In this document: piece by piece, positions 13,250-42,440 of the stretch
Layout: the number at the start of each line of letters is the position of its first letter
Position numbering within the stretch: the stretch's first letter is position 1
Assembly: GCF_015687155.1 (NCBI RefSeq)
Contig: NZ_JADPQF010000003.1
Span: 186,001 to 250,000, forward strand
Direction of reading: 5' to 3'
From: Aliikangiella sp. G2MR2-5
Lineage (GTDB): Bacteria > Pseudomonadota > Gammaproteobacteria > Enterobacterales > Kangiellaceae
Length of the DNA: 64,000 nucleotides
Made by a program: the position numbers and the translations under genes
The notes under the pieces: model-generated
Database searches by the model: none
The model's input: only the letters and a program-made list of their open reading frames with translations
What the model was told of the DNA's origin: nothing

Positions 13250-13651
13250 AAAACAATTAACAACACTTACCAAATGACCCGTAAAACGCTAAATAAAGAA
13301 CACGCAAAAACGAATACTGCGAGATGATTTATGTGAGACGACAATTAATTTAGCTATTTTCCATTGAACTTTTAGTAAACATTACAGAGTCTCTAGTAAA
13401 TATTTACATTATATGACATTAATCAATATTTGAGATTGAAGATATTTTAACAGTGACTTAAAATCGCGCTTCAGAAACGCAAAGGGAGTTTGCTTATTAC
13501 GGTTTGTCCTTTCCTCGCACCTTCCTATTGTGGGTTTAAACAACCTGTTTGATTGTTAAACAAACAAATAACTGAACAGTTATTAATGCTCCGTATTCCA
13601 GAGTGCTCGCTGTTTGAATAAAAAATTAAGATTATTTTGGGGACTAGTAAA
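13250..13651 (+). promoter_or_regulatory. Promoter and leader of the first RHS gene
   Basis: A 400-bp AT-rich gap. A good sigma-70-type promoter is visible: TTGAAG at 13436-13441, a 17-bp spacer, then TAAAAT at 13459-13464. It leaves a leader of roughly 180 nt. The leader contains an inverted repeat, AATAACTG (13567-13574) and CAGTTATT (13577-13584), separated by AA, which could be an operator or an RNA hairpin. Nothing else was recognised. Confidence 0.5.
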
Positions 13652-22600: not shown

Positions 22601-22897
22601 CAGCCCAAAAGTGGATATACTCAAGTTCAATACACTTGGGTAGGCTCTGATAACTTGGTTTATATTGCAAGATGGCACGGGCGCACGGGCGAATGGGGGC
22701 CAGCTCACTCGTGGCGTGTAACAAGAGGTACTTCTAAAAACCAAATCAATAGAGGTAATGGCGAAGAAATGTATAATGTTTTCGGAGCTCACCGATGGGT
22801 TTCCACTAGAGAATACAGAAGTGCGATTAGGGCTCGGAGAGCAGGAACTGCTACGGGTCATCAAAGATTCATTCTAAAGAGGTCACATATGCCATGA
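13652..22897 (+). CDS. Giant secreted SpvB/RHS protein with FnIII-like domains and a polymorphic C-terminal tip
   Basis: About 3081 residues. GTG at 13652 is chosen: it gives a clean signal peptide (QFKSLVLCIVMSLAGGF, then cleavage near VKA) and has GGGGA upstream, while the TTG at 13637 has none. Order: a low-complexity Ser/Asn/Gly stretch; seven tandem FnIII-like domains of about 93 residues (about 90-745), each ending in a Cys-pair motif such as RACNGYNWACSS; an SpvB/TcdB-type N-domain from about 765 (VPIAIPPGRAGMQPNVSLNY); at least seven FG-GAP/VCBS calcium repeats (DVNGDGIKDAV type); YD repeats; and the RHS core end GRFLSVDPFIQ to NPLAGTDPSGY (about 2750-2776). The last 300 residues, after a Lys-rich linker, are AT-richer and unlike the rest, as expected of a toxin tip. 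The tip is rich in Trp, His and Arg, and I do not recognise its family. A cognate immunity candidate overlaps the end. Confidence 0.85.
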   Translation: MQFKSLVLCIVMSLAGGFSTVVKAVCTEPLALSTGSDPLLTDSELQENGNSAGNANASGNGNSGANPSDSSTSESSSTLAFTGPGGGCTGGSTPNTPSSISYPSTSTSGSFTVSWGASEGFTGVIAKYHLEQSKNGGGYTEIATIAATTTSYSLTGRGYGDYRYRVRACKDGLCSGYRTGGTILVRPKPAKPATPVNVNSTATSYRVSWTKPSGTVSYYQVQEKLVSGNWATISSKHTATYIDLSGKLNNQAWNYRVRACNGYNWACSSYSSANTVRVELKPSVPTAPLNVNSASSSFSISWTKPSGSVNFYKVQERVAGGSWSTVSSNNTTTSLSFSGRANNTNYEYKVAACNSYDWACSDFSPVNLVRVEVKPEAPAKPTDINSTSTIFSVAWSKPSGTADYYYIRERTLGGSWSPEVKLTAASYPRTHSDGSTWEYQVKACNSFDWACSSFSPTAVAKVRIPAEIPGKQDNVYSNTSSYSVEWTAAARATYYYVQERAVGSTWGPLNKTSATSQTFTNNNNTYWEYQVKACNGEDWACSSFGPTISATVRFKPGTPAAPTTSVTQSITGSYSINWTAPTGTTTKYDLQQRKDNGGWATIANNTTSTTKAVSGLSSGDYQYRVRACNTYDWACSSYSVISNNVMVRLTPGKPSITQPTGNIVKYAQFPIKWGADAEATYYVVEELTGSGAWDVLANNLAATTYEISKSASGTYNFRVKACNELSCSAYSNTKTITLVLPPTYGEVTLQPVADAIFSPLGNIPAQQNVGALEGQAGVSGGAATYSVPIAIPPGRAGMQPNVSLNYSSRSGNGIVGVGWSLGVGSSIHRCGPSRAVDGQNVGVTYNATMDKLCLDGQRLILANSAAYGEPGAQYHTELDQFLRVTQLDGSMNSGSTNFKVEYKNGTLAYYGNSSDSRHSAGGISETLSWAIKQKEDRTPLRNNIRYYYETYGQGEHLLRQIKYTGENDSYGDRQVEFVYENRPDKDFKMLAGGKTESTKRLSHIKTYLNNGNLLIRDYAINYQNTTKTVSEVSRRSLVRNIVECSQNQCLPATNFTWEDVAPSMGAKKQFNTYTGDYNLALFGRDALNLTDVNGDGIKDAVIYDHLNPNSTTWERKVTVRLLNAAGELDTEKYYDNPIDLGTTNFNTVGADFNLDGYKDFIYYDYSSDQTKARSFKKSIVGGKEKWTYSGEVVTLITGPVKNVIDLNGDGKEDLITTDGTNYFAHFNTSKMTGGVASISFSAPQVMTHVNPNVRGHAYLSVMNIDMSSLFAFGAPPPPVVPFGPVLEQESMGTSDINGDGLVDLIFTREKNKEVTFNYEKSEFYPDGLVQKTAVPERIYHEIVFARPNGSGGVSYDARVPGEQLGLPYNIAFNQGVFADINGDGLADYASAEVISGQYRWMVRYNNGNGTFANSVNTGIATGIHTQTYDDDPLNDDIFKHRVQAVNGGLMVMDIDQDGDDELLVAEFPIGSVTYQSSHYNSMNIRRTGTGLHRFGDKSVEPYAFHSTYSAYDIRPYNYSVVDIRSGSNRVISNYLKAPLPYSVQGGLEIGDVNSDGYTDISYKQAKYFCVDSLDLNCDNIDKGDSWKTETRIEVSSSFSDTAALYYHQGEKASPDLLQEVENGLGVHSRWNYAPLVSDGGRSAQDPKFYEIPTDRYVMRNGFNYSEDYLYFASSMYVVSDFEQSNGIGEFNKTAYSYREAIYNREGRGFQGFRTIIVDNPDGTRAVTDFHQVFPLAGKIEEVRTCMANDDNYGHQSEDNSNVNVECNNSPLSKNAFEYFVFKKKYSEPTSGFSGRTRICPEGDLEGDECPSGDDDTLRASYNNYWWVVPTESTELSYDFNDRDSVLPLLNKKVTLDPLQDVDAAFGNILKTTQVIDDGYSQRQTVTENSYYPENIEGWWINKLEWTKVTSQTLSGSKNAVYDATLDPVKWTKTTINSYDPLGSRHPASITTTAIDAKSVTVNSIYNNTGLPTKVTTTADGESREVNTGYSSDGYFVEWVNSGLGRAYSYADPIHGQPERTKDINSLETNYKYDAFGRAEQVTPPNGSGQPVYTRFAWCENDCDGRGFPTDVASRMVYKQTSYSAGTPESIVYKDQFNRVVASATKAFDGSNYVYTTAVYDALGRKVRETNPSHDASFAKGVHFDKYDEIGRLTEKRVDQADNQEMAVSYIYAGHDTTIKASGLIMHRTYSGNGQLMKTVDAESGVTQYAYDAMGNPIVLQDANGSPITASYNGLGQKKYVIDPNMGRKDFTYTGFGEVKTETDANGNSYRYKYDTQGRLTHRYLNGWDYGDLEARFLFDSANQGTTGAKCKGLPESELSKNGNNFARSYAYDSLCRPLQTTTSIDGRSFVQTTHYDTNYGRVKGVTYPTGTTLENWYNSDGYLTHQVNAANDYVYHEVTAADARGQVLRALKANGNLTEKRVFDDVSGQMLEVYTYSNTVLDQRHRIVYTYDNGFGNLRSQDVESIDTNGVVSSLTETYRYDDLHRLVESTLNGVSTGYDYDKVGNLLYKDDFASNYLYGDIARTYNNAGPNAVRQVTKAGGGTVTYSYDANGNLLSDGEKTLTYNAFNKPTKITKSGITSNFYYGSDQMRFKQVKTGKAGGTETTYYVGKAYEEIHYNGEIIKKSYMGDTILTETERNNNLDFKIGFVHRDRLNSVVTITDENGRIVDNKSYDPFGKPRKASMEKVDLASPARLDQIAWMENYIPTKESTELHTRRGFTDHEHLDDAELIHMNGRVYDYNLGRFLSVDPFIQEPGNSQSMNPYSYIMNNPLAGTDPSGYTACDAGDDSCDKPKEKPKRKKRDHRRGKGFGWKTVYVAGNNGSDTTNATVVVKHKGKAPENIGDIKTEDVISITIISDTATEADLVAAYSGGTEEESFDFDCDGCKFTPGQYGLSGKRGGKPRRVRPQSQETQEIFNIHQYEMLVSQIQLINPHYRPPPNASSYNSPLVTQQTLSNLRVVLQNSINALAGRAPIQIGNTTGRMQPKSGYTQVQYTWVGSDNLVYIARWHGRTGEWGPAHSWRVTRGTSKNQINRGNGEEMYNVFGAHRWVSTREYRSAIRARRAGTATGHQRFILKRSHMP

Positions 22898-27148: not shown

Positions 27149-28456
27149 ATGTTAAAGAAAATTCTATTGTCGGCAGGATTACTTACTGCTTCTTCTTTTG
27201 TAAACGCAACCGGCAGTGTGGTTTTATGGGAGTATGAGTTGGGATTGATGAATTCACACCCTAGCTTATTCGGGTTGAAAGACAGTGCCGGTAATTGGTA
27301 CCTCGACAATAGTGGAAAAAAAATTGAATACGTTGGTAAAAAATGGAATGTGTTTGATGGCGCCGGAAAATACCAGAATAAAGTTTATTGGGGGTGGAGC
27401 GGGCCGGAAACTTATACCGTTGACGGTGGTGGAGATGCCAATCATCGCTATGTCACTTACGGCTACTGGAAGGACAATCTTGACAACGAAACATCTGGCG
27501 GAGCCTATGACCAGGCGGTCAATGACGGTAACATTGCGACTAAAGCGGAAGAGCGTTGGTCATTGGATGCCGTGAAAAATTTTGATCACAGATGGACCGG
27601 GATGTATGAAAATGACTACTACGATGACAATGCAAAAGATAATCGAAATCTGCAGCATAGACTCGGTTTTGCTCACGCAACCCATAAAAAGGATGCATTT
27701 GTAAATGATGATACCGTTGATACTCACTTAAAAGCCAAGGTAGCGCGCTTCACCAGACATAATGATTCCAATTGCCAGGATAGAGGCGTTGCCTGGCCGA
27801 CGTTGTTTTTTAGCGAAAGCGCTTCCTGGCCTGGCAGCGAACTGAATCCCACCGCAATGTCGAGTGTTTACGTCTATTCGAAAGAGCAGAATAAATGCAT
27901 GAATAAACATGCCAACGGCAGTTATATCAGAAACAACAAGGGTGAAATTGTTTCGCCAGGATATATCTATATTACTGCGGAAGAAAATGGTCGAGTAAGC
28001 GACTGGGGAATACCTGGAACTCCGATAAGAAATAATAAGTGTGATGCGGAGTTTCCAATAGGTTCCAGTAAGTATTCTGAGCATAAGAACAAAGCGGTAA
28101 CGGCGAATAAAATTTGTAAATTGGCTCCCAATGTGATGACTGTCCATCAGCGATACACTATGTACAATTATATCGAATCTACAAATGGTAATGGTTGGAA
28201 TGTGGGCTGTGAAAATATTACTTACGTCTGGGGATATGATAAAGCAAGCGAGCACAATAATGCTCACCAAAACTTCTTTCGCGCAGGCGAGTTGCGCTGG
28301 ACTATCTGGCAAAGTACAACTAGCAACTCATATATTGAGCCAACCGCTCCTGTCTGGGATACGCTATGTAACAAGAATAATGGTACCAACGTAATCTATT
28401 CCGGAATTTATAAACTGAACGAATCGATTGAGGAAGATGACTACTATCAGGAGTGA
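27149..28456 (+). CDS. Secreted protein of unknown function
   Basis: Not recognised. 435 residues with a clear signal peptide (MLKKILLSAGLLTASSFVNA). The mature protein is rich in Trp, Tyr, Asn and Asp and has several cysteines (CQDRG, NKCMNKH, NNKCDAEF, KICKLAP, VGCENITYVWGYD, DTLCNK) consistent with disulfides in the periplasm or outside. Aromatic-rich repeats such as YWGWSGPETYTV and YGYWKDNLDN suggest a beta-sheet, possibly carbohydrate-binding or structural, fold. It precedes the hybrid sensor gene on the same strand; a hairpin separates them. A good ribosome site (ACGGAG) precedes the ATG. Confidence 0.55.
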   Translation: MLKKILLSAGLLTASSFVNATGSVVLWEYELGLMNSHPSLFGLKDSAGNWYLDNSGKKIEYVGKKWNVFDGAGKYQNKVYWGWSGPETYTVDGGGDANHRYVTYGYWKDNLDNETSGGAYDQAVNDGNIATKAEERWSLDAVKNFDHRWTGMYENDYYDDNAKDNRNLQHRLGFAHATHKKDAFVNDDTVDTHLKAKVARFTRHNDSNCQDRGVAWPTLFFSESASWPGSELNPTAMSSVYVYSKEQNKCMNKHANGSYIRNNKGEIVSPGYIYITAEENGRVSDWGIPGTPIRNNKCDAEFPIGSSKYSEHKNKAVTANKICKLAPNVMTVHQRYTMYNYIESTNGNGWNVGCENITYVWGYDKASEHNNAHQNFFRAGELRWTIWQSTTSNSYIEPTAPVWDTLCNKNNGTNVIYSGIYKLNESIEEDDYYQE

Positions 28457-28636: not shown

Positions 28637-31600
28637 ATGCAAGTTAAGAGTAGTCAACGAAATTTTTTATTAGGCCTGGTGTTGTTTTTGACAAGCTTTA
28701 ACCTCTTTGCTGATAGTGAGCGAGGTCGTTCTTTTTTTTCTGAGTATCCTCCGGAGATATATGGAGGTGGATATCAAATCTGGAATTTTACCCAGGATTC
28801 TCAGGGCGTGATATACGCAGCAAATAACGGTGGAGTATTCTCCTTTGATAGTCATCAGTGGAAGAACATTGAGAATACTAACCGACTGTTGGTCATATCG
28901 CTAGACGTTGATCCTGATGACTCGATACTCGTCGGCGCTGCAGGTGACTTTGGACTTGTTTCTACTGCTGAAAACGGAAAGAAAATTTTTCGTTCTTTAA
29001 AAGATGACTTTGTAGATGCAGGGCTTATCAGTTCTTCCCAGCAAATAACAGAAATATTGGATGTCGTCTTTTTTGAAGATAAATACTATTTTCTTTCTCC
29101 ATCACATATCTATCGCTGGCAAGCTGATGGAGAATTGGCTGTATTTCAAGGAAATGAACTTTCTTCTTTTGCCATATTTAAGGGAGAGCTTTTTGTATAT
29201 GACAACAAAAAAGGATTAGAGCGAATCTCGGATACTGGACTACAACTGATTATTGATGAGATAGAGTTTGAGTCCAGCCCAGTTGTCTTTATGCTAAATG
29301 ACAATGACTTGCGGCTTCTTGTTGGTAGCAAGGAAAATGGAATATATGTCGTCCAAAATAATTCAGTTTCAAAATTAGAAAGCCAATATCTTGAAAAAAA
29401 TAAAAATTTTGGATTGATGCATGGTGTACTTTCACTGGATGGCGCTTTGGTTTTAGGCTTCGAAAAGAAATCAGGGGTAGCGATTCTGGATAACGAAGGT
29501 CGTTTGATTCAAAAGCATAGCAAGGCCAGTGGACTAAGTTCCGATGACATATTGACTAGTTTTATTGATGCCAACAATACCTTGTGGTTGGGAAGTAATA
29601 ACGGTGTCTTGCGAATAGAAGCTTTTTCACCGTTAACTACTTTTGATGTTAAAACAGGATTGGTTGGTGTTGTTCATCGTATTGTTCGATTTGATGGACA
29701 GCTCTATGTCGCGACGAGTGAAGGAGTCTTTTATTTAAATAAAGGTATCTCTCCTGCATTCCACCGAATGAACAGGGTTAAAGCTCAATGCTTTAGTTTG
29801 ATCGCAACAGATAACGGAATTTTGGCGGGTTGCGAAGATCGTGTTTATCAAATTGTTGGCGATAGTATCAATTTGCTTGATATTGAAAAGGATCTTAAAG
29901 TTTATGCATTACAGCAATTGAAAAAACATCCTGATATTATCCTGATTGGACTTTCAAATGGTCTCGCCTATTTACAGCGTGTTCAAAATCAATGGCATTA
30001 TAAAGGACGCTTGCTTGACTCAACTCCACCATTTAGAGAAATAAAGCAAGATGATAATAATATTATCTGGATGAATACTTTTTATGAGGGTATTTATCGC
30101 GCAAATTTTGACTACGAATCGAAAAGCGTGACAACTCAAATTGTGACTGCCGAACAGGGACTACCTTCAGGCTATCCTTTCCTTATGCTTGTAGATGGTA
30201 AAATACTGTTTGGTACAAATGATGGTGTGCTTGAGATTGAAGAAGGAAATATTAAAAATAAAAAAATGTTGAGTCGCGATCCGCGTTTTGTCCAATTTAT
30301 TAACGAAAATGGCTATCTCCTTGAAACTTTTCATCAGTCTGAAAATGGAAAACTATGGTTTACCGGTTCTGGGCTGAAGTTACTGGGTGGGATGAAGTTA
30401 ACTAATGGTGTGTATATGATCGATTCAACTCACTTCGACAGGCGCGCAGATTTTTATACAAACATTATTTACGCAGAGAATAATGCGGTTTGGGCTGGCG
30501 GCCTTAACGGTTTATTAAAGCTTGATCTGATGAGCCAGAATCATGAAAAGACTTCAAAGTTAATGATTAGTAAAACTGTCGATATTTATCGACAGACGGA
30601 ACTTTTTGGCGGAGGAAAACAAACGCTAATTCCAGAAATTGAGTACATGCAAAATTCCCTTCGTTTTGAATTTGCCTTAACAAGTTTTGATGCGCCAGAT
30701 AAAACTTTGTACCAGTACAGACTGGAAGGCTTTAATGATAGTTGGTCTGATTGGTCATCGGAAACGTATCGTGAATTTACCAATCTTGATGAAGGTAGCT
30801 ATGTTTTTAGCGTTCGAGCAAAGGACCTTTACCATCAGTCTGAAGCAGCAGAATTTCGATTTGTTATTCTCGCTCCCTGGTATCGAAGCTGGTGGGCTTA
30901 TATTGTCTATGGGGTGATATTTTTGATGCTTGCACAGCTTTGGACTCGATGGAAGTCTCAAAGCATTCAGAGAAAAAATCGTCTGCTGGAAAAGAGAATC
31001 GGCGAAAAAACTACGGAAATTCAGCTGCAAAAGCATCAGCTGGAAATGCAGAATATACAGCTTGTGGAAATGAGTAACTATAAATCAAGGTTCTATACAA
31101 ACATTTCTCACGAATTACGAACGCCCCTTAGTTTGTCGATTGCACCGGTTGCAGATATCCTCGAAGGAAAACTGGGGCAGGTTTCATCAGAAATTTATGA
31201 AAGGCTTACGCTCGTCCAGAAAAACTCCAGACATTTATTAAATTACATCAACCAACTTTTGGATATGACAAGAGAAGACAGCCTTCACTATGAGCTTAAG
31301 GTTGAGCTCGTTAATCTATTACCAATAGTCCGGTCTCGTTATGATGCATTTTATGCCCTGTCTAAAAGAAAGGAAGTTAGCTTTACCGTAGAAATTCCCG
31401 AGACGCCGGTAGAAATATTGATTGATCGGCAAATGTTTATTCATGCTCTGGATAACTTACTCAACAATGCCTTCAAATTTACTGACAAGGGTGGGGCCGT
31501 TCATTTAAAAGTGAAAAATTCTAGCGACAGTATTTTTGTGGAGGTCATTGATACGGGCATCGGTATTGACAATGAAAGATTGTCGAAAATATTTGATCGT

Positions 31601-32701
31601 TACTTTCAAGTTGGCGCTTCCGGAATTTCGAAGAAAAAAGGAATTGGCGTTGGCTTAAATTTTGTACAGGAAATTATGAAGCAGCATCATGGTCAGGTTA
31701 ATGTCGAAAGTGAGGTTGGAAGTGGGAGTCATTTCTCGCTGCTATTCCAGAAAGGTACAGAGCATTTTTCCGAAGAACTGGCAAAGCAAGAACGATATGG
31801 TTCAGCTCAAAAAGTAGGTGAGCCTCAGGATTACGATACATTATGTCATATCGATAATTTAAGTCATTCTGATAATTTAAATCATTCCGATAAAACTGGC
31901 CGCACAGATAAAGAAGATATAATTCGTGTGAAAGATGGAAGACGCGAAAAGTTCCATATCCTGGTAGTTGAAGATAACAGAGAACTTCAGAACTATCTGG
32001 TGGAAAGGTTGGGGCTGGATTATCAGGTCTCTGGTGCAGACAATGGAAAGGAAGCGCTAGCTATCGCGCAAAGCTCACTTCCCGATATTATTTTAAGTGA
32101 CATTGCCATGCCACAGATGGATGGAAAACAACTTTGTCAGGCGATTAAGTCCGATCCACTAACCAGCCATATTGCCGTGATATTACTAACGGCACAAACT
32201 TCTCAGGAACAAATTGTGAGCGGATTGGAGTCTGGTGCTGATGATTATCTGGTCAAGCCTTTCGAACCCCACTCCCTAGAGCTTAAGTTGGCTAACCTGG
32301 TGAACACGCGGCAGCAATTACATGCTCGATATAACCAGACTCTGGGAATCAAGACCGTTGACTTACCGCTTCGGTCGGCGAACGATGTCTTCATGAAGCG
32401 AGTGTTAGAGGTGATTGACTTATCGCTCGATAGTTCTGATTTTACTGTCGAAACATTGGCTTTACAGATCGGACTGGGTAGAAGACAGCTTTTGCGCAAA
32501 ATTAAGGCTCTTACGAACAAGAGCCCGAGTGAGCTTATCAAGGAGAGGCGACTGCATACGGCGGCGGATCTCTTAAAGGCAAAAGTAGGCAATGTTTCAG
32601 AGGTAGCCTATCGGTGCGGATTTGAAGACCCGGCCTACTTCAGCAAAGAGTTCAAACTATTTATGGGGGTTCCTCCAAGTGAATACTCCAGAGCAAACTA
32701 A
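28637..32701 (+). CDS. Hybrid two-component system regulator (sensor, kinase, receiver and AraC HTH in one protein)
   Basis: 1354 residues. Order: signal peptide or anchor (1-26); a periplasmic two-propeller sensor of Reg_prop-type repeats (about 40-660; DANNTLWLGSNNGVLRIE, EQGLPSGYPFLM); a Y_Y_Y domain (about 665-745; YQYRLEGFNDSWSDWS); one transmembrane helix (about 755-775); HisKA with ISHELRTPLSL, phospho-His about 825; HATPase with NNAFKFT and DTGIGIDNERLSKIFDRYF; a receiver with phospho-Asp about 1155 in IILSDIAMPQMDG; and an AraC-type double HTH at the end (VAYRCGFEDPAYFSKEFK). This architecture is best known from Bacteroidetes glycan-utilisation systems. Its HTH should bind direct repeats, and such repeats occur upstream of the next two genes. 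Confidence 0.93.
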   Translation: MQVKSSQRNFLLGLVLFLTSFNLFADSERGRSFFSEYPPEIYGGGYQIWNFTQDSQGVIYAANNGGVFSFDSHQWKNIENTNRLLVISLDVDPDDSILVGAAGDFGLVSTAENGKKIFRSLKDDFVDAGLISSSQQITEILDVVFFEDKYYFLSPSHIYRWQADGELAVFQGNELSSFAIFKGELFVYDNKKGLERISDTGLQLIIDEIEFESSPVVFMLNDNDLRLLVGSKENGIYVVQNNSVSKLESQYLEKNKNFGLMHGVLSLDGALVLGFEKKSGVAILDNEGRLIQKHSKASGLSSDDILTSFIDANNTLWLGSNNGVLRIEAFSPLTTFDVKTGLVGVVHRIVRFDGQLYVATSEGVFYLNKGISPAFHRMNRVKAQCFSLIATDNGILAGCEDRVYQIVGDSINLLDIEKDLKVYALQQLKKHPDIILIGLSNGLAYLQRVQNQWHYKGRLLDSTPPFREIKQDDNNIIWMNTFYEGIYRANFDYESKSVTTQIVTAEQGLPSGYPFLMLVDGKILFGTNDGVLEIEEGNIKNKKMLSRDPRFVQFINENGYLLETFHQSENGKLWFTGSGLKLLGGMKLTNGVYMIDSTHFDRRADFYTNIIYAENNAVWAGGLNGLLKLDLMSQNHEKTSKLMISKTVDIYRQTELFGGGKQTLIPEIEYMQNSLRFEFALTSFDAPDKTLYQYRLEGFNDSWSDWSSETYREFTNLDEGSYVFSVRAKDLYHQSEAAEFRFVILAPWYRSWWAYIVYGVIFLMLAQLWTRWKSQSIQRKNRLLEKRIGEKTTEIQLQKHQLEMQNIQLVEMSNYKSRFYTNISHELRTPLSLSIAPVADILEGKLGQVSSEIYERLTLVQKNSRHLLNYINQLLDMTREDSLHYELKVELVNLLPIVRSRYDAFYALSKRKEVSFTVEIPETPVEILIDRQMFIHALDNLLNNAFKFTDKGGAVHLKVKNSSDSIFVEVIDTGIGIDNERLSKIFDRYFQVGASGISKKKGIGVGLNFVQEIMKQHHGQVNVESEVGSGSHFSLLFQKGTEHFSEELAKQERYGSAQKVGEPQDYDTLCHIDNLSHSDNLNHSDKTGRTDKEDIIRVKDGRREKFHILVVEDNRELQNYLVERLGLDYQVSGADNGKEALAIAQSSLPDIILSDIAMPQMDGKQLCQAIKSDPLTSHIAVILLTAQTSQEQIVSGLESGADDYLVKPFEPHSLELKLANLVNTRQQLHARYNQTLGIKTVDLPLRSANDVFMKRVLEVIDLSLDSSDFTVETLALQIGLGRRQLLRKIKALTNKSPSELIKERRLHTAADLLKAKVGNVSEVAYRCGFEDPAYFSKEFKLFMGVPPSEYSRAN

Positions 32702-32826: not shown

Positions 32827-32860
32827 TGTCTCATATCTCCATATAAAATGTCCCATATAT
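32827..32860 (+). promoter_or_regulatory. Direct-repeat operator A (upstream of YD-repeat protein gene)
   Basis: TGTCTCATAT at 32827 and TGTCCCATAT at 32849 are 22 bp apart, about two helical turns on the same face. The same two-part element occurs at 39418-39449 before the TSP3/propeller gene. Direct repeats at this spacing are what a dimer of AraC-type HTH domains binds. The hybrid regulator gene lies immediately upstream. Confidence 0.6.
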
Positions 32861-32997
32861 ATCCTTAAGCTTTTGTTACTCGGTGATAACTTTGTTGGGC
32901 CTAAAAATCACTTAGGAGCCAGTCGATTTTTATGCCCTTTCTAATAAGGAACAATCCAGTTTAATTTACACAAGGAAAATCATAGAGGACCTATGAA

Positions 32998-35900
32998 ATG
33001 AAGCTTAAAACACCAATATACAAGGTGGTTATTCCTCTCTTCGGGTTGAGTGCAATAACTACGCTAAGCCAGGCCAATATACCTGGAGAGCTTACTAACG
33101 GAGCCGGTGGTTCAGTTAGTGCCGATCAGCACCTCGCCAAGTCTAACCAGCAGGTTGGCAACAGTGGTGCGGTTAACTATTCCTTTCCGCTGGGTCAGCA
33201 TGTGAGCGCTAGCTACTCTTCCAACGGCGGATGGTCTGTTGGCCAGGTCAGCCATATTTCTCGTTCCACCAGGTTCGGACTGCCCAAATATAATGAAAAC
33301 GATATTTTCACCCTAAACGGCCAGGAGCTGGTGTGTGCAACCAACTGCGAAGCAGTGTCAGGCGATAGAATTTATCACTTAAGCAATGAAAACTATCAGA
33401 AGATTGAGTTTATTAACATTGATAGTGAAGACTCTTACTGGCAAGTCACCGATAAAAATGGTGGGGTAACGCGCTACGGTGCCAGCGACGATTCTCGAAT
33501 TGAAGCGGTTGATATTGAAGCTGCACATCCGAGAGTTTGGGCTATCACGGACAAAAAGGATGCAGCCAATACTGAATTGACCAAATACCTTTATTCAGAG
33601 ATCCCGGAAGCAGGAAACTACTATCTTCACTTTGTAATCAGCGGCAAAGTTAATGCTGCAATTAATGGATATAGCTGCGCCGAGCTGGAGTATGAGTGGT
33701 TACCTGCTAACAATCGCAAAGTAAGCTATCAGGATGGAAGCTATGTAGAAGAGCAGTTTCATGTGATCAACGTTTATAACAAGATAGGTTGTGAGCTATC
33801 AGGTAGCGGCGGTATGCAAACCAGCCGTAACCAGCTTTTGTGGGAAAGCGCGCCTTTTGGTGAATTACAACGAATTTCTGCAATACGGAGTTACGGCTCG
33901 GGTGATGTTGCCAAACCCGACACTTTATTCGAATATTACGAATTGGCCCCCGGGTTTGGCGAAGCGGAAAACTGGGGAAATCCGGAAGGAGACTTCGGGT
34001 TTACTGATGCGATACAGGAGTACTCGAACAGTCGCACCAAGGCTGAACTTCTGGATATGAACGGCGATGCGCTACCTGATCGTGTGAGAAAAGATGAAGA
34101 AGAAAATTTTCGTATCTGGCTAAATAATGGGGACGGATTTGCCAACAATGCTTTGAACTGGGGCAATCCTGCTTCGGATGCGATAAGAGAAGGAGACGAT
34201 ACCAAAGCGGATCTAATTGATATGGATGCCGATGGTAAACTGGATCGAGTTCGAAAAAACAATAATGAAGATATGGTTGTACGCAGAAACAAGGGTAACG
34301 GATTCTCTGAGCCCGACGGCTGCACCTGGGGAAATCCAGAAGGACGTTATTCGGCAAATCTTGATATTCGAGTGAGCGTTAATGGTATTAATACACATGA
34401 ATCTGACCCCTGGGGAACCATTATTGATCTGGTGGATATGAATGGTGATGGCTATCCTGACCGAGTTTACAAAGGTTCACCGGATAACGATGGCGAACAT
34501 AACTACGACAACTATCATTTCAAAGTCTGGTTAAATGATGGCTGCGGCTTCGATCGCAATTTGGTCCAAGACTGGGGGAGTCCGGAAGATTCCCTGTTTG
34601 GTGAACCAGGTAACATCAGACATATGGGGTCGAAAACCATAACCCAGCTTGAATTAATGGATATCAATGGAGATGGTCTGCCTGACCGCCTGCTGAAAAG
34701 AGCATCAGAGCCTCTCTATGTCTGGCTGAATACTGGCAGTGGTTTTGAGAATGAACATCTCATTTGGGAAAATTCTACAGACGGTCACGCTTTACGACAA
34801 ACCGTTAAATCCGGTGAAACTAATTACACTGTCAGAGATCTGGTTGATATGAATGGTGACGGGTTGCCAGATAGAGTTTACAAGCGTCAGGATTCACCTT
34901 CTAGCGGGTTAGCCGACCTTAAAGTTTATCTTAATACCGGGAGAGGCTTCAGTACTGTCGAGACTAATTGGGGCAGTCCTGATAATCAATTTTTACGTAA
35001 AGTGGAATCGAACGAAAGTAGTTTCGCTCTAATTGATATGAACGGTGATCGCTTACCTGACCGTGTAATCAAATGCGACACCAGTTGTGCACAAACTGAC
35101 TTTAGTGTGCGTTTAAATTTAGCAAAGCCCGGTGAAATGCTGCTGAAAAAAGTGACCAACCATTTGGGTGGACAGACTTCCTACGTTTACCAGCCGCTCG
35201 ATCTCAGCCCGACAGGCTACAATCCTGACTATGGTCAAAAGCGTTGGGTTGTCTCTAAAAAAATTATTTCAGATGGCTTTGGTGACAACGGGACCGGCGA
35301 AGAAAAGAGAACGACTACTTATGAGTTTCATGGAGGCGTTTACGATAAAAATCACAGACAAGATTTAGGGTTTGAAAAAATGTTTCAAATTGAGCCAACA
35401 GGGGATGTCAGAGAAACGCATTTTTATCAACTCATAAATCTATCCGGTGTGGTCAAGAAAAGCTTACTTCGCCAAGGCGCTATTGACGGGCCGATCCATG
35501 AGTATCGCTACGATTACTATGAAGATCGCGCTGAAGATCCGAATGATTATTCTTATGGAATTCAGCAGGCTCGACCTAATCCAGGACCAGACGCAGAAGT
35601 TTACTCACCCAAAATTCATACGGTTCACAACTTTATTGTTAGTGGCTCTACCTCAGTTGATTTAGGCGGTATGCCGGAGTACTCAGGGTTAGGTTTCAAG
35701 CGAACCAAGCAAACATATGAGTATGATTCTTTTGGCAATGTAAAAAGTGAAATTAACTATGGTCTGGTTGACTCTCAAGAACACACTGACGTAGGCATTG
35801 ATAAAGTAACCAATGATACCCGTTGGGGATATTACTTATCCAAGTGGATAATGAAGCCTATTCTTAAAGAGAGCCTGGAATGGAATGTCGATACCCAAAG

Positions 35901-38900
35901 CTATCAACTTTCCGCCAAAACACAATTTATCTATGATGATAGTGAGTCCGGTGTCGGTGAGAATGGCTGGTTAACAACCAAAAGAATCTTTCAGGATGAA
36001 AGTAATTCTTACGACATTAACTATCGCTATGACACTGATGGCAATCTGGAAAGAGAGCAAAATGGAAGAGGCTTCTGGACAATCTATACTTTTGAACCTC
36101 GTTATAAACGGTATCAGCAAAGTGTCGAATTGCCGTCGCCGGTTGATAAAGCCAACATAACCACAAGTCATTATGACAGCCTGATGCGTTTGACTTCCAC
36201 TGTTGATGGTAACGAAAATACTACGAGCTATGGCTATGATTCATTTGGTCGCGTTTCCTATATTGTTAAACCATTAGATGAATTAGCCTATCCGACTATT
36301 CGTTATTTCTATACCGATTGGGAGCCAGTCAAGAACACGCCTTCCTATGTGCAAAAGCAAGTCAAAGATGAAGCTGCTGCCAGTATTATCAGCCGAACCT
36401 ACTATGATGGTTTTGGACAAGTTATAGAAACAAAGACCGAGGCTCCCGCTTATGGTGATAATGGCCAGATCAGGTACAGAACTGTTGATAGCTGGCAGTT
36501 TGTTGAGGGTAACAAGAAGGTCAGGCAAACATCTATTCCTTATTTTACAACCGGTGCTGAATATAGCCGTAATCTGACGCCCGATAAAAAGGAGAGTCGA
36601 AGTGAAACCTATCTTAATGCTGATTCCAGTATTTCGAGTGACTATCTGGGAACGGTGATTAAAACAACGTCGGCTTCAGAAAGGCCTACTTATCAGCGAG
36701 ATTTTCATTTCACAACTTATAATCTCGATGCCAGTTTTCATTTCACTTCGACGGTGAAACAACCGGAAAGTCTTAAACGTAGCATCTATCAGTATACCGG
36801 AGTATTTCCTGCCAATAGTTTTTATGCGAGAACTGAAATACATGACTATTTCCACAAACAGCAAATTTTTGATCATCATGGTAACACTACTGTGAAGCAT
36901 AAAAATTTTCTGGGTCAAACTGTTAGGGAAGAAGATATGGACAGAGGCATCTGGCAATATTCTTACGACAAAAACGGTAACCTGAAAACACAAACTGACG
37001 CAAAAAATGTACTCATTGTATTTGATTATGATGTGCTGGACAGAATTCAGAGCAAAACTTATCCGGATGGCAGCACCATTGAATACTATTACGATGGGGA
37101 CGAGGACCGGGATGGTGAAATTGACTCAGGCCGCAGACATATTCTTGGGCAGTTAGCCAAGGTTAGCGATTTTAGTGGCTATACTCGCTTTTGGTATGAC
37201 GAGCGCTATCGGATTACCAGAGAGCAAAAGAAAATAAATGGACTTAGTACCAGAAATATCTACTTCCGATATGATTCGATGGATAGAATTTCAGGGATCA
37301 AATATCCTGCTGATGATAATTATACGGTAATAGGTTATGACCGAGGCGGCGCAATGCTGTCAATTACTGCTGACGGTATGGATCAAGTAATAAGCCAGGT
37401 CAATTATAGTGAGCAGGGCCAAGTCAAAGATATTTTCTTTAATGGAAGTAGTCAGCATTTCGAATACTGGGATGAAAGCCGAGATTATCGTCTCAAGTCT
37501 AACTACAGCCTGAAAACTCAAGACACCAGCGAGCTTATCCGGTATGAATACGATTATGATGCTGTCGGCAACATTGAAAAAATTGATGGTTATCTTGATT
37601 CGGTGCTAACACCGCAGTATTCCCGCACATTTACCTATGATGACTTGAGCCGGCTAAAAACTCAGTCTAATGTCGATTATTTTGGTGGCAGCGAACTATT
37701 TAGCTACGATGAAATTGGCAACATTACCGAACGTAATGGTGTCAAGTATGTATATCCGGAAAAAGGAAAAGCTCGTCCTCATGCCGTAACAAGCGTTGGC
37801 AGCAAAGCTTATCAATACAATGACAATGGTGATATGTTCGATCGAAATGGTGATCTGATTGATTATGATTTTGATCGTCAGATGGTTCAGTACAAGGACG
37901 AAAGCTACCTGTATGACTACGCTGGACGTCGAGTGAAAAAGTGGACGAGTGAGGATACTATTTACTACCCCAATAAATATTATGAAATTCGTAATGACAA
38001 ACCAATCAAGTTCTATTATCTGAATGGGGTAAAGATCGCCAGACACAAAAGGAAGGAATATAGCTTTATACACAATGACCATTTACAAGGAAGCAGTATC
38101 ATAACAGATATTTCTGGAGTAAAAACTCGGGAGCTTCTTTATAACAGTTTCGGTGAAGTGAAGCGAAATGTTGGCTCAGGGGAGTCTCCGGACTATAAAT
38201 ACACTGGTAAAGAAGAGGATAGCTCAGGGCTAAACTATTTTGGTGCTCGTTATTATGACCCTGGTATCGGCAAGTTCATTCAAGCGGATACATTATATGA
38301 TGGAGCTTCGGGGCCAGAAGGACTAAACCTCTACGCCTACTCAGCAAATAACCCGATTAAGTTTAATGATCCGTCAGGCAATAGCGCAGGAGATCCAATC
38401 GCATGGTTGAAAGCAATTAAAGATACCTATTCCGGGATCAACAACTACAATAGCGGTAATGCCCGAGACGGTGTTCTTCAGGTGACTGGTTCGGTAGCCT
38501 TTGCTGTTCAGGCTGTAGCGGAAAGCGCGACCAACAGTTTGGCAAAAGCGTCTGAGAAATACGCTCGTTCTGCCGTAGTTAACAGTGCCAAAGCTGTTGT
38601 TCGGGGTCGCAGTGTAAATCCTTTTACGCGTTTGTCGGGAACAGGTGCAGCAGTTAAAGCGGATATTGCAAATTCTGCTTCAAAAACCATGAGCAAAGGA
38701 AGCAAGATGGCGGGCAGATATGCTAAAGCTGCTGGAAGAGTTGGTGTGGGCTTAACTGTTATTTCACTGGCGCCTGATGCATATAATGCTGCCTCTTCTT
38801 ATTACAATGGGAGTACTACAAAAGGCAATTACTATGCAGCTAAAGTCGGAATGGGTGGTGCAATGGCTGCGGCCGAAACAACTCCCCTTGGACTCGGTGT

Positions 38901-39228
38901 TTCCATGATGATATCTGTGTCAGAAGCTGGTGCGCAAAACTTTCTTGCTCAGCATACAGGAGAGACAACTGCTGGATTCATCGATACCATGGCTATGGGG
39001 ACAGCAATACTCTCTGTTGATGGCGGAGGACAAATGATTGTCGACGCTCTACAGGAAAGTAATACTGGTTATCAACCAATCGATAGTGCCCGGCATGCGC
39101 TTGGAAACGGGATCGAGGCTGTCCCGGGAATTATGAATAACGCTTCGATTATCGCTGATCATGTTGGAGACTCTGTTAGCAGTGCGTGGAACAACTTCTG
39201 GAGTAGTGATGAACAGGGAAATAATTAA
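32998..39228 (+). CDS. Giant secreted YD-repeat (RHS-like) protein
   Basis: 2076 residues with a signal peptide (KVVIPLFGLSAITTLSQA). AGAGGA at 32984-32989 supports the ATG at 32998. Residues from about 35 form an SpvB-like opening (NSGAVNYSFPLGQHVS). Next come six FG-GAP-like calcium repeats of the form D-x-N-G-D-x-x-P-D-R-V spaced about 60-85 residues apart (about 350-700), then a long YD-repeat shell. The RHS core end is GLNYFGARYYDPGIGKFIQ to NPIKFNDPSGN (about 1740-1795). The last 280 residues are Ala/Gly/Ser-rich with hydrophobic stretches (GVGLTVISLAPDAYNAA, MGGAMAAAETTPLGLGVSMM). They resemble a membrane-active or packing region more than a nuclease, and no immunity-like gene follows. 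Likely controlled by the upstream hybrid regulator through operator A. Confidence 0.85.
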   Translation: MKLKTPIYKVVIPLFGLSAITTLSQANIPGELTNGAGGSVSADQHLAKSNQQVGNSGAVNYSFPLGQHVSASYSSNGGWSVGQVSHISRSTRFGLPKYNENDIFTLNGQELVCATNCEAVSGDRIYHLSNENYQKIEFINIDSEDSYWQVTDKNGGVTRYGASDDSRIEAVDIEAAHPRVWAITDKKDAANTELTKYLYSEIPEAGNYYLHFVISGKVNAAINGYSCAELEYEWLPANNRKVSYQDGSYVEEQFHVINVYNKIGCELSGSGGMQTSRNQLLWESAPFGELQRISAIRSYGSGDVAKPDTLFEYYELAPGFGEAENWGNPEGDFGFTDAIQEYSNSRTKAELLDMNGDALPDRVRKDEEENFRIWLNNGDGFANNALNWGNPASDAIREGDDTKADLIDMDADGKLDRVRKNNNEDMVVRRNKGNGFSEPDGCTWGNPEGRYSANLDIRVSVNGINTHESDPWGTIIDLVDMNGDGYPDRVYKGSPDNDGEHNYDNYHFKVWLNDGCGFDRNLVQDWGSPEDSLFGEPGNIRHMGSKTITQLELMDINGDGLPDRLLKRASEPLYVWLNTGSGFENEHLIWENSTDGHALRQTVKSGETNYTVRDLVDMNGDGLPDRVYKRQDSPSSGLADLKVYLNTGRGFSTVETNWGSPDNQFLRKVESNESSFALIDMNGDRLPDRVIKCDTSCAQTDFSVRLNLAKPGEMLLKKVTNHLGGQTSYVYQPLDLSPTGYNPDYGQKRWVVSKKIISDGFGDNGTGEEKRTTTYEFHGGVYDKNHRQDLGFEKMFQIEPTGDVRETHFYQLINLSGVVKKSLLRQGAIDGPIHEYRYDYYEDRAEDPNDYSYGIQQARPNPGPDAEVYSPKIHTVHNFIVSGSTSVDLGGMPEYSGLGFKRTKQTYEYDSFGNVKSEINYGLVDSQEHTDVGIDKVTNDTRWGYYLSKWIMKPILKESLEWNVDTQSYQLSAKTQFIYDDSESGVGENGWLTTKRIFQDESNSYDINYRYDTDGNLEREQNGRGFWTIYTFEPRYKRYQQSVELPSPVDKANITTSHYDSLMRLTSTVDGNENTTSYGYDSFGRVSYIVKPLDELAYPTIRYFYTDWEPVKNTPSYVQKQVKDEAAASIISRTYYDGFGQVIETKTEAPAYGDNGQIRYRTVDSWQFVEGNKKVRQTSIPYFTTGAEYSRNLTPDKKESRSETYLNADSSISSDYLGTVIKTTSASERPTYQRDFHFTTYNLDASFHFTSTVKQPESLKRSIYQYTGVFPANSFYARTEIHDYFHKQQIFDHHGNTTVKHKNFLGQTVREEDMDRGIWQYSYDKNGNLKTQTDAKNVLIVFDYDVLDRIQSKTYPDGSTIEYYYDGDEDRDGEIDSGRRHILGQLAKVSDFSGYTRFWYDERYRITREQKKINGLSTRNIYFRYDSMDRISGIKYPADDNYTVIGYDRGGAMLSITADGMDQVISQVNYSEQGQVKDIFFNGSSQHFEYWDESRDYRLKSNYSLKTQDTSELIRYEYDYDAVGNIEKIDGYLDSVLTPQYSRTFTYDDLSRLKTQSNVDYFGGSELFSYDEIGNITERNGVKYVYPEKGKARPHAVTSVGSKAYQYNDNGDMFDRNGDLIDYDFDRQMVQYKDESYLYDYAGRRVKKWTSEDTIYYPNKYYEIRNDKPIKFYYLNGVKIARHKRKEYSFIHNDHLQGSSIITDISGVKTRELLYNSFGEVKRNVGSGESPDYKYTGKEEDSSGLNYFGARYYDPGIGKFIQADTLYDGASGPEGLNLYAYSANNPIKFNDPSGNSAGDPIAWLKAIKDTYSGINNYNSGNARDGVLQVTGSVAFAVQAVAESATNSLAKASEKYARSAVVNSAKAVVRGRSVNPFTRLSGTGAAVKADIANSASKTMSKGSKMAGRYAKAAGRVGVGLTVISLAPDAYNAASSYYNGSTTKGNYYAAKVGMGGAMAAAETTPLGLGVSMMISVSEAGAQNFLAQHTGETTAGFIDTMAMGTAILSVDGGGQMIVDALQESNTGYQPIDSARHALGNGIEAVPGIMNNASIIADHVGDSVSSAWNNFWSSDEQGNN

Positions 39229-39707
39229 TCATGTTAGTTGACTAGTTGTCCACTTGAATGTCTGCCATCATAAAGCTCGCTAATTCATTGCAGTGGCTTT
39301 ATGGTGGCTTCTACTCTCAAGCCTTCTTGCATTACATCAGAGGTTCAGTAACAGGAAGGACCTAAACTCTCTATATTTAGTATAAATAATATTCAAATTC
39401 GTGTTTTTTCATAAAGATGTCGTATTTCTTCATAAGATTGTCCCAAATTGTTCCTGCTCTTTTTGTAAGATATCCCGATGGGCATTGAAGCTCTTATTAA
39501 TATCTAGTCTTTCTTATTTTAGTTTTGTTATAGGGACTGCAATAGATTGAATTTAGATTTTATTTCGGTGTAATAAAAAAAATGGTCGCTCAGTTTTTGT
39601 AAGTATTTAATATAGTGAGTCACTGTTAAAGGCTTTTTGCATTCAACATGAGTATCTTGCCGATACAAAAAATTATATTTAGTGGAATGAGAAGAAGGAG
39701 TTCCTAC
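39229..39707 (+). promoter_or_regulatory. Intergenic region with operator B and leader of the TSP3 gene
   Basis: About 480 AT-rich bases. Operator B consists of TGTCGTATTT at 39418 and TGTCCCAAAT at 39439, 21 bp apart. Each half is preceded by TTCATAA (about 39408 and 39428), so the repeated unit is about 20 bp: TTCATAA, two to three bases, TGTC, AT-rich. It matches operator A at 32827-32860. It lies about 270 bp before the ATG, leaving a long leader. No gene was seen. Confidence 0.6.
39264..39308 (+). terminator. Long-loop hairpin after the YD-repeat gene
   Basis: GCCATCATAAAGC (39264-39276) pairs with GCTTTATGGTGGC (39296-39308), 13 bp with one wobble and a 19-nt loop. There is no strong T-run. 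Architecture resembles the hairpin after the hybrid regulator. Confidence 0.5.
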
Positions 39708-42440
39708 ATGGTTTTAAAGGTTCGTAATGGAAAAACAACGCGCATACGCAGGGCAATTTATAAGGCGCTATTTTGTAGTTCAATAATATTAACTACCACG
39801 AATGTTATGGCGATTGAAGGCGATCAAGACAATGATGGTATGCCGGATGAGTGGGAGCTAGTCAACGGCCTTAATCCTATGGACCCTTCCGATGCCAGTA
39901 CTGATCTGGATTGGGATACCTTGAGCAACTTAACTGAGTATGGCTTGGGAACGGATCCGAACAACTTTGATAGTGACAGTGATGAGCTCGATGATGGTAT
40001 GGAAGTCAGTCTTAATATTGATCCGACAAAACCCGATAGTGATGGTGACCAACTACCTGATGGCTGGGAATATTTTAATAGTTTGAATCCAGCTGATGCG
40101 AGTGACGCTTCGCTAGATGCTGATTTTGATGGGCTCAATAATTTAGAAGAATATTTATTGGGGTCATTTCCGCAAGACCCGGACACAGATGATGATTCGA
40201 TTCTTGATGGCGATGAAGAAATGAATGGTACCAGTGCGCTGGATTATGATACCGACAATGATGGTCTTTCTGATAATGAAGCCAGTGAGTTTGGTACCAA
40301 CCAACTAAACAGGGACTCAGACTCTGACGGTATTATTGATGGTTTTCAGTTTGGCTCTGTTTTACCTCTGGATCCTTTACAAGAGTTAAACAGTGGAACC
40401 GGAGAAAGTTCCGGCGCCGCCTTGTCAGCCGATGGTCGCTTTGCCGTCTTTGTATCAGAGCGCAGTGGACTGGTTTCAAATGATAACAATAACTTTATCG
40501 ATGTATTCTGGCACGACACGCTAACCGGAGAAGTGAGAAAAATCAGTAATGCCTGGGATGGCGGTGATGCTAATGGTTGGAGCGGTCGTATTGTTAACGG
40601 CATCGGTATTGATATCTCTGCAGACGGTCGATATGTGGTTTTCCAGTCCGGAGCCAGCAATATAATACCCTCGGACTTAAATGGTGGGAGCAGCGACATA
40701 TATCTTCATGATACGCAAACAGGAAAAACAAGTTTAGTGAGTGTAACCAGCGATGGCGTACAGGCTAGCGGTAGCAGCTGGAGTCCAAGGATTTCGAATG
40801 ATGGACGTAAAATAGTATTTCGCTCAAGCGCCACTGAGCTATTACCTGGCGCTGACAATAACTCCTACAACAGTGATATCTTTTTGCATGATCTTGACAC
40901 AGGAGTAACTGAGCTTATCAGTAAAAATTCACAGGGAGTGCAGGGAAATGGCAATAGCGAAGGCGCTGATATTTCTTCGGACGGACGTTATGTTTCATTT
41001 CTATCAAAATCAGATAACTTGGTGATAGACGACAATAATAGTCCGACTCTTTCTAAAAATGATTTGTTTGTACATGATCGTGTTGAAGGTAAGACTGCCC
41101 GGGTTAATCTAAACAACGATGGAACTGAATTTCCTACTGAATACACCTATGGGGGCTCGCTCTCTGGTGATGGCCGATTTATAGCATTTTCTACAACGGC
41201 TGATATTGATAACGCGGATAGTAATAACGGGTTCGATTGTTATATCAGAGACTTGCAGTCAGGGAATAATATTCTGGTGAGTGCGGGTGAGAGTAACATC
41301 AAATGTGTGACACCATCACTTTCTGAAAGCGGTCGATTTGTCGCTTATGAGTTGTTGCGTGGAGCGAGTAATTCTGGGGATGGAATTTATCTTAAAGATA
41401 TGCAGTCGGGCCAGGTTAAAGTCATTTCAAAAACAGAGCAAGCGGCTGAATCGTTTTCTTATGGTCGTGGTATAGGGTTGGATGTTTCTGATGACGGACA
41501 ATTTGTTCAGTATGCGCTAAGACCTTATTATCTTGGAGGAACTATTTACGCTGGACATCAGAATTTCTTGTCTAAAACGGATATGCCAAAAGAAGTAAAA
41601 GGCCCAAAATTGACAACTGATTTTCTCTCCAATGTAAGCAGTAGCGAGTGGACAACAGTTACACTGCCTCATCATTATCAGTCTATGGTGGTTGTGGCTA
41701 CGCCTCAGTATGATCAGAATTCTGTACCCATGGTTGTTAGAATTCGAAATTCAGAAGGCAATCAGTTCGAAATTAAATTAGATCGGACCGATGGCTTGAG
41801 TGCAGAAGTGTTTGGCGACGTTCATTATTTCGTGGTCGAAGAAGGCGTTTATACGGTAGAGAATGATGGTCTAAAAATGGAGGCGGTCAAATTTACTTCT
41901 TCTGTTACCGACTCTAAATCTTTTTGGAGTGGTGAAGCGAGGAGTTACCAAAATAATTATCAGGCACCTGTGGTACTGGGGCAGGTTATGACCGCAAATG
42001 ATCCCGCATTTTCTGTTTTCTGGTCTTACGGCGCTAGCCGGGGAGCAGCGGCTAACGCTTCTTTCTTAAATGTTGGTAAACATGTCGGTGAAGATCCTGA
42101 TATTCAACGCCAGGATGAAACCATAGGCTATGTTGTTTTCGAGCAAGGAGCTGGTAGTGTTAATGGCTTGAATTACATTGCCAGGCTTGGTGGCGACACT
42201 ATTCGAGGAGTACAAAATGGTCTATACAATTATTCACTGTCTGGTTTGACAAATCCCAAGTCAGCGGTTTGCTCACAAGCGGCTATGGATGGCGGAAATG
42301 GCGGCTGGGCTGTTTTACTTGGTGAGATTAATGCTGACAGACTGACTTTGGGAATTGATGAAGATCGTATGAAGGATAGCGAGCGAAATCATACAACAGA
42401 ACAAGTGGGATACATTGTTTTTGAAAATGCCGAAAACTAA
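39708..42440 (+). CDS. Secreted TSP3-repeat / beta-propeller protein with lectin-like C-terminus
   Basis: 910 residues. The ATG at 39708 is preferred to 39648 because AAGGAG (39695-39700) precedes it and a signal peptide then follows (basic N-region, then ALFCSSIILTTTNVMA). Next are seven thrombospondin type 3-like calcium repeats (DQDNDGMPDEWE, DSDGDQLPDGWE, DTDNDGLSDNEA and relatives; about 20-210). A WD40/PD40-type propeller follows with recurring SADGRFAVFVS, SADGRYVVFQS, SNDGRKIVFRS, SSDGRYVSFLS and SGDGRFIAFST blades (about 220-620). The C-terminal 270 residues are beta-rich with two similar halves, each ending in a GYVVFE or GYIVFE strand. They resemble H-type lectin-like modules, a tentative reading. 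Probably surface or secreted adhesion or glycan binding; shares the operator with the YD-repeat gene. Confidence 0.75.
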   Translation: MVLKVRNGKTTRIRRAIYKALFCSSIILTTTNVMAIEGDQDNDGMPDEWELVNGLNPMDPSDASTDLDWDTLSNLTEYGLGTDPNNFDSDSDELDDGMEVSLNIDPTKPDSDGDQLPDGWEYFNSLNPADASDASLDADFDGLNNLEEYLLGSFPQDPDTDDDSILDGDEEMNGTSALDYDTDNDGLSDNEASEFGTNQLNRDSDSDGIIDGFQFGSVLPLDPLQELNSGTGESSGAALSADGRFAVFVSERSGLVSNDNNNFIDVFWHDTLTGEVRKISNAWDGGDANGWSGRIVNGIGIDISADGRYVVFQSGASNIIPSDLNGGSSDIYLHDTQTGKTSLVSVTSDGVQASGSSWSPRISNDGRKIVFRSSATELLPGADNNSYNSDIFLHDLDTGVTELISKNSQGVQGNGNSEGADISSDGRYVSFLSKSDNLVIDDNNSPTLSKNDLFVHDRVEGKTARVNLNNDGTEFPTEYTYGGSLSGDGRFIAFSTTADIDNADSNNGFDCYIRDLQSGNNILVSAGESNIKCVTPSLSESGRFVAYELLRGASNSGDGIYLKDMQSGQVKVISKTEQAAESFSYGRGIGLDVSDDGQFVQYALRPYYLGGTIYAGHQNFLSKTDMPKEVKGPKLTTDFLSNVSSSEWTTVTLPHHYQSMVVVATPQYDQNSVPMVVRIRNSEGNQFEIKLDRTDGLSAEVFGDVHYFVVEEGVYTVENDGLKMEAVKFTSSVTDSKSFWSGEARSYQNNYQAPVVLGQVMTANDPAFSVFWSYGASRGAAANASFLNVGKHVGEDPDIQRQDETIGYVVFEQGAGSVNGLNYIARLGGDTIRGVQNGLYNYSLSGLTNPKSAVCSQAAMDGGNGGWAVLLGEINADRLTLGIDEDRMKDSERNHTTEQVGYIVFENAEN

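Follow-up and report, generated by a model that had tools for sequence, protein, structure and literature searches.

The tandem repeats that precede a YD-repeat gene and a TSP3/propeller gene in the 64 kb window (the whole stretch of DNA that was analysed) are probably, with a rough probability of 0.8, operators of the adjacent hybrid two-component regulator (HTCS; 28637-32701), which would control both genes. We infer binding of the regulator to these sites from comparison of sequences within and beyond the window. The features concerned are as follows.

28637..32701, + strand: HTCS regulator of 1354 aa (Pfam matches above cut-off; translation)
32827..32836, + strand: putative distal half-site of operator 1, TGTCTCATAT (sequence; operator 1 ranks first with the outside matrix described below)
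32849..32858, + strand: putative proximal half-site of operator 1, TGTCCCATAT, 22 bp after the distal half-site
32887..32892, + strand: candidate -10 hexamer TAACTT, at offset 39 from the operator 1 proximal half-site
32998..39228, + strand: YD/RHS-repeat gene, 2076 aa, predicted target 1 (Pfam: SpvB, FG-GAP_3, TcdB_toxin_midN and RHS_repeat)
39397..39414, + strand: third, weaker putative half-site, ATTCGTGTTTTTTCATAA, 21 bp before 39418 (the 39397/39418 pair ranks second)
39418..39427, + strand: putative half-site of operator 2, TGTCGTATTT (sequence; strict-pattern match; outside matrix)
39439..39448, + strand: putative proximal half-site of operator 2, TGTCCCAAAT, 21 bp after 39418 (the 39418/39439 pair ranks third)
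39466..39471, + strand: TAAGAT, at offset 28 and not 38-39, the highest-scoring -10-like hexamer close to operator 2
39708..42440, + strand: DxDxDG-repeat (TSP3-like)/PD40 propeller gene, 910 aa, predicted target 2 (PD40 by Pfam; repeats by eye)

Two tandem repeats before two large genes

Both tandems are located exactly where the sequence-only reading had placed them, with a spacing of 22 bp before gene 32998 and of 21 bp before gene 39708, and their half-sites conform to the consensus TGTCnYAWWT. Direct repeats ∼21 bp apart (here 22 and 21) in front of neighbouring genes are a typical feature of HTCS operators; that operator 1 departs from 21 bp speaks against the operator reading. The same reading spoke of two giant surface-protein genes. 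The 2076-aa product of the YD-repeat gene displays a signal-like start in its translation; the second product, with 910 aa (930 aa in the longest ORF, which starts at 39648), is large rather than giant.

In a search for two tandem pairs of 10-mers (spacing 20-23) in the two intergenic regions, the best four 10-mers were precisely the four half-sites originally noted, and their score was equalled in 8/1000 of the dinucleotide shuffles that served as the control. By themselves the repeats of the window are moderately beyond chance, and comparison with other loci, presented below, strengthens the case over the shuffle test alone. In its strict form the element is not common genome-wide, matching at just two places in the 5.02 Mb genome, both adjoining the regulator, while the reversed control gave 0 matches. 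When up to three mismatches were allowed, the 22-bp form was found at 16 places in the genome (control 17) and the 21-bp form at 14 (control 15), and single loose matches are uninformative because they equal the control in number. One of the 14 loose 21-bp matches (C23:8078) directly follows a full-length HTCS paralogue. The window contains four exact TGTC pairs at 21/22 bp, two of which are operators 1 and 2. Counts of TGTCS pairs at 21 and 23 bp across 61 genomes were rejected as support because the 21-bp counts were of the same order as those of the reversed control.

The adjacent regulator and its relatives

The regulator comprises Reg_prop, Y_Y_Y, HisKA, HATPase_c, receiver and HTH_18 domains (Pfam, above cut-off); the propeller sensor, HisKA, HATPase, receiver and AraC-type HTH that characterize an HTCS are united in a single protein. 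The HTH_18 match agrees with the AraC-type C-terminal end attributed to the protein from its sequence. In the translated α3-β4 loop of the receiver the window regulator reads SHIA at the position of the S/CHIP motif, where the paralogue reads SHIP. Directly before the regulator lies a gene (27149-28456) for a protein of 435 aa, which begins with a signal-like segment and matches no Pfam family at E 0.001; among the best repeats before this gene and before the regulator, none is at 21 or 22 bp.

Protein searches revealed relatives of the regulator in 59/61 genomes. Among the matches listed for its own genome, nine places match the regulator, and 6/9 of these matches extend into the AraC end. 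No close orthologue was found by the protein search of the 61 genomes, by a contig scan or by sensor-profile searches of the family and order; the contig scan returned 29 relatives, the best at 31 percent over part of the protein only, and no named close relative. A full-length relative in the same genome, at 29 percent, is the paralogous HTCS C23:3815-7945 (locus L045). Searches with a profile that covered just the sensor region (alignment A1) defined a sensor subfamily with members in 6/40 genomes of the family, 16/394 of the order and 3/369 of the class, counts that each include the window's own genome and derive from few candidates scored per genome. This subfamily couples one sensor to three outputs (AraC domain, kinase/receiver and GGDEF), the close sensor relatives L042, L043, L044, L197-L201 and L203-L205 possessing either a kinase/receiver end (8) or a GGDEF end (3).

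Downstream of the paralogue are two secreted-protein genes, encoding PLD-like and S8 protease proteins, and a tandem stands before each of them (TGTCTCAAAA/TGTCCCTTTT and TGTCGTATTT/CGTCGTTATTT), the second having ten bases in common with operator 2. The locus is organized like the window, with an HTCS gene and then two secreted-protein genes each preceded by a 21-bp tandem, although the genes themselves are of other kinds and the half-sites differ in detail. Such similarity of the paralogue's sites, the ten bases of operator 2 in particular, would also be expected if the window tandems were real HTCS-type operators bound by, or shared with, another regulator, be it the paralogue or a further AraC-type protein, and the six own-genome matches that reach the AraC end likewise count in favour of this reading. 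The strict element, however, is found beside the regulator at 28637-32701 only, and control by another protein is considered unlikely.

TGTC tandems beside other HTCS genes

The discovery set consisted of 20 HTCS neighbourhoods, three of which (L042-L044) contain members lacking an AraC end. In the intergenic DNA of this set, together with part of the window, there are ten TGTC pairs at 21 bp against no more than two at any one of 37 other spacings, and TGTCG pairs number seven at 21 bp and 0 at other spacings. Under a stricter gene call, with the window left out, the discovery set retains nine TGTC pairs at 21 bp. The signal is far weaker in the held-out set of 20 further HTCS neighbourhoods, where TGTC pairs number four at 21 bp, three at 20 bp and ≤3 at other spacings; 20 random stretches gave one at 21 bp and up to three at other spacings. 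Beyond TGTC, a C and an A recur ∼13 bases into many half-sites of HTCS loci.

A matrix was built from 12 operators outside the window, of which 11 are near HTCS genes and one (L132) comes from a random stretch where no HTCS was seen; two of the 11 are from the window's own genome (L048). The preference of this outside matrix for TGTC is built in because its training sites were picked for exact 21-bp TGTC pairs. Among all 21/22-bp tandems on both strands of the 64 kb, the pairs at 32827, 39397 and 39418 rank 1, 2 and 3, the 39397/39418 pair being second even though it contains no exact TGTC pair. Over all 33 spacings in the window, operator 1 is only 11th and the 39418 pair only 25th. Clear operator-like 21-bp tandems are also present in two random stretches (L132 4735 and L126 11657) that showed no HTCS; these are perhaps distant regulon members.

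A natural control within the sensor subfamily

The sensor subfamily enables loci with and without an AraC end to be compared. The first group, apart from the window regulator, contains the HTH_18-ending members L045, L040, L041, L193 and L194, and the second 11 loci without this end (8 kinase/receiver and 3 GGDEF), all assigned by Pfam; subfamily loci cut by a contig end (G509, G008:C193 and G459) and training loci (L103, L109 and L132) were left out. When 33 spacings were scored with the outside matrix, 21 bp came out best in 4/5 AraC-ending loci and in 0/11 loci without that end, the exception among the former, L041, having a 26-bp pair that scores 8.3 compared with 7.9 at 21 bp. Scores at 21 bp range from 7.9 to 24.4 in the AraC-ending group and are ≤4.1 in the other, in which GC content is higher (0.459 vs 0.418). 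In each of the five AraC-ending loci a proposed site heads the 21/22-bp tandems, and 4/5 of these loci have TGGC or TGAC in at least one half-site; the second site of L045 (8078) is fifth. Counts of TG[TG]C pairs (6 in AraC-ending and 4 in other subfamily loci) did not discriminate between the groups, as the matrix did, and were rejected. The operator reading of the window pairs is favoured because such pairs accompany AraC-ending relatives and not relatives that lack this end.

Co-occurrence of operator and hybrid regulator, which the sequence-only reading proposed to compare across genomes, is seen in the sensor subfamily; 21 bp is, however, also the best of 33 spacings in 3/19 random loci. 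Among other HTCS loci the figure is 6/18. The random loci in question (L125, L126 and L127) are from one genome, and blastp found no HTCS in them; conversely, L131 (control) and L204 (group without AraC end) hold an AraC-ending HTCS, yet display no 21-bp site with the outside matrix. These loci speak against a simple rule of operator-regulator co-occurrence. Together with the shuffles that score as well and the loose matches that are as frequent as their control, the 3/19 random loci are what would be expected if the window repeats resembled one another by chance, in intergenic DNA rich in AT, and had caught the eye of a repeat-seeking reader. Such a coincidence is rendered very unlikely by the 21-bp spacing peak in HTCS neighbourhoods, by the subfamily control and by the ranking of the window pairs as first to third of the 21/22-bp tandems with a matrix from elsewhere.

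Leave-one-out matrices recovered the 21-bp site as the top tandem of its locus in G008, G039, G490 and G674. It was not recovered by these matrices for the window or for the paralogue locus, in our opinion because most of the remaining training sites read TGGC/TGAC. A profile of 17 operators from outside the window has its best match in the window at 39399-39432 (E 0.019), corresponding to the 39397/39418 pair, which is not one of the pairs originally noted, while operator 1 comes fourth (E 1.5). Applied to the genome of the window, the profile gave 19 matches at E ≤10, with the 39397/39418 pair last of the 19 and operator 1 absent. Nine of the 19 are within ∼7 kb of an HTCS gene; four of these nine are training sites, and 5/15 untrained matches are thus near an HTCS. 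Two untrained tandems lie on either side of the HTCS near C12:560000, each of them preceding an S8 protease gene. At L048 12532-15452, next to one HTCS, ∼3 kb of DNA contain four tandem profile matches; long ORFs between these are few, and the matches perhaps stand before small genes.

Promoter placement and the direction of control

The position of the -10 element was explored with 22 operators (23 minus one from L048 with a misaligned start) and a weighted hexamer score. The -10-like score is highest at offsets of 38-39 relative to the proximal half-site, a peak reached in 1/5000 permutations whether or not the window's two sites are included. This corresponds to the class II placement of AraC-type regulators (∼38 bases to the -10), with which the 22-operator set and operator 1 agree and operator 2 does not, having no suitable -10-like hexamer at offset 38-39. 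In E. coli K-12, TACTGT, which we take as the -10 of araBAD, occurs at offset 38 from I2 and coincides with the -10-like peak of the HTCS set; the I1-I2 half-sites are likewise 21 bp apart. AraC differs from HTCSs in that it senses arabinose itself and has no kinase. A resemblance between operator 2 and E. coli araI1 (15/21) was rejected as non-distinctive, being tied with four other places in the window.

A best hexamer at offset 28 near operator 2 would be compatible with a regulator that binds here but represses, the genes being held off until a signal arrives. The SHIA sequence of its receiver would be compatible as well, given that PMC11253607, which describes HTCS receiver-to-HTH inhibition and the S/CHIP motif, discusses possible repression by HTCSs departing from that motif. 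Repression is nevertheless very unlikely, as the set-wide -10 position fits activation and operator 1 has a -10 candidate at offset 39.

If the tandems are operators through which the adjacent HTCS activates, an outside signal would be sensed by the periplasmic propeller and phosphate would be handed from the His to the Asp of the receiver. The two half-sites, separated by about two turns of the helix, would then each be occupied by an AraC-type domain, both on the same face of the DNA. The promoter-proximal domain would overlap the -35 of the promoter and assist RNA polymerase there, such that the YD-repeat and TSP3/propeller genes would be switched on together. That a dimer binds, that phosphate is required and that the genes are activated is proposed here by analogy with the AraC family and with work on HTCSs.

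Relation to known HTCS systems

The HTCS operator kind is already known in Bacteroides; what is new is the host group and the non-glycan nature of the predicted targets. According to PMC3878776, the motifs of 16 Bacteroides HTCSs consist of directly repeated sites whose tandem distance averages 21 bp, likewise before neighbouring genes, and HTCS_Man, HTCS_Rgu and HTCS_Hep likewise combine sensor, kinase, receiver and AraC-type regulator in one protein. The Bacteroides regulons described there serve polysaccharide use, in contrast to the YD-repeat and TSP3/propeller proteins that are the likely targets here. The half-site here (TGTCnYAWWT) and the host group, presumably a Kangiellaceae-like gammaproteobacterium, also differ. 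Adjacent polysaccharide-utilization genes are usual for Bacteroides HTCSs but not defining. No polysaccharide-utilization Pfam families were found among the seven window proteins scanned. Titles and abstract openings returned by our literature searches contained no report of HTCS operators before YD-repeat or TSP3 genes, and passages of PMC12125979 mention HTCSs for other systems only.

The first recognition helix reads RRQL in the window regulator, L045 and L056, where it accompanies TGTC, and RRSL in L040, L041 and L193, where it accompanies TGGC or TGAC; L194 (TGTC/TGAC) was left out of this tabulation. The covariation is a lead only, because the numbers are small and follow descent. It is conceivable, although somewhat doubtful, that in this bacterial family the HTCS design has been redeployed from glycan use to large secreted or surface proteins (YD-repeat, TSP3/propeller, PLD-like and S8 proteases), the operator code changing in step with the recognition helix (RRQL-TGTC, RRSL-TGGC/TGAC).

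Being able to read the operator of a large regulator family beyond Bacteroides would make the targets of many unannotated HTCS genes predictable from sequence. The operator would also tie the YD-repeat and TSP3/propeller proteins to one signal, rendering their joint function testable, and the kinase- or GGDEF-ending sensor relatives constitute a natural test of operator gain and loss.

Neighbouring genes

An association between YD-repeat and HTCS genes was rejected as unproven, with blastp finding it in 6/20 discovery, 0/20 validation and 1/20 control loci, and phmmer in 2, 0 and 1, respectively. No orthology is claimed between a TSP3-bearing protein beside the G008 regulator and the window TSP3 protein, their match being chiefly in the repeats. 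Upstream in the window, on the same strand, is a second, larger YD/RHS-repeat gene (13637-22897, 3086 aa) with Pfam matches to fn3, SpvB, FG-GAP, TcdB_toxin_midN and RHS_repeat; it is preceded by a 21-bp repeat (11/14 bases) without TGTC that is absent from the top profile and matrix matches. Recurrent neighbours of HTCS genes in L047, L050, L051 and L058 are proteins of ∼300 aa that combine a signal-like start with a C-x-x-C segment.
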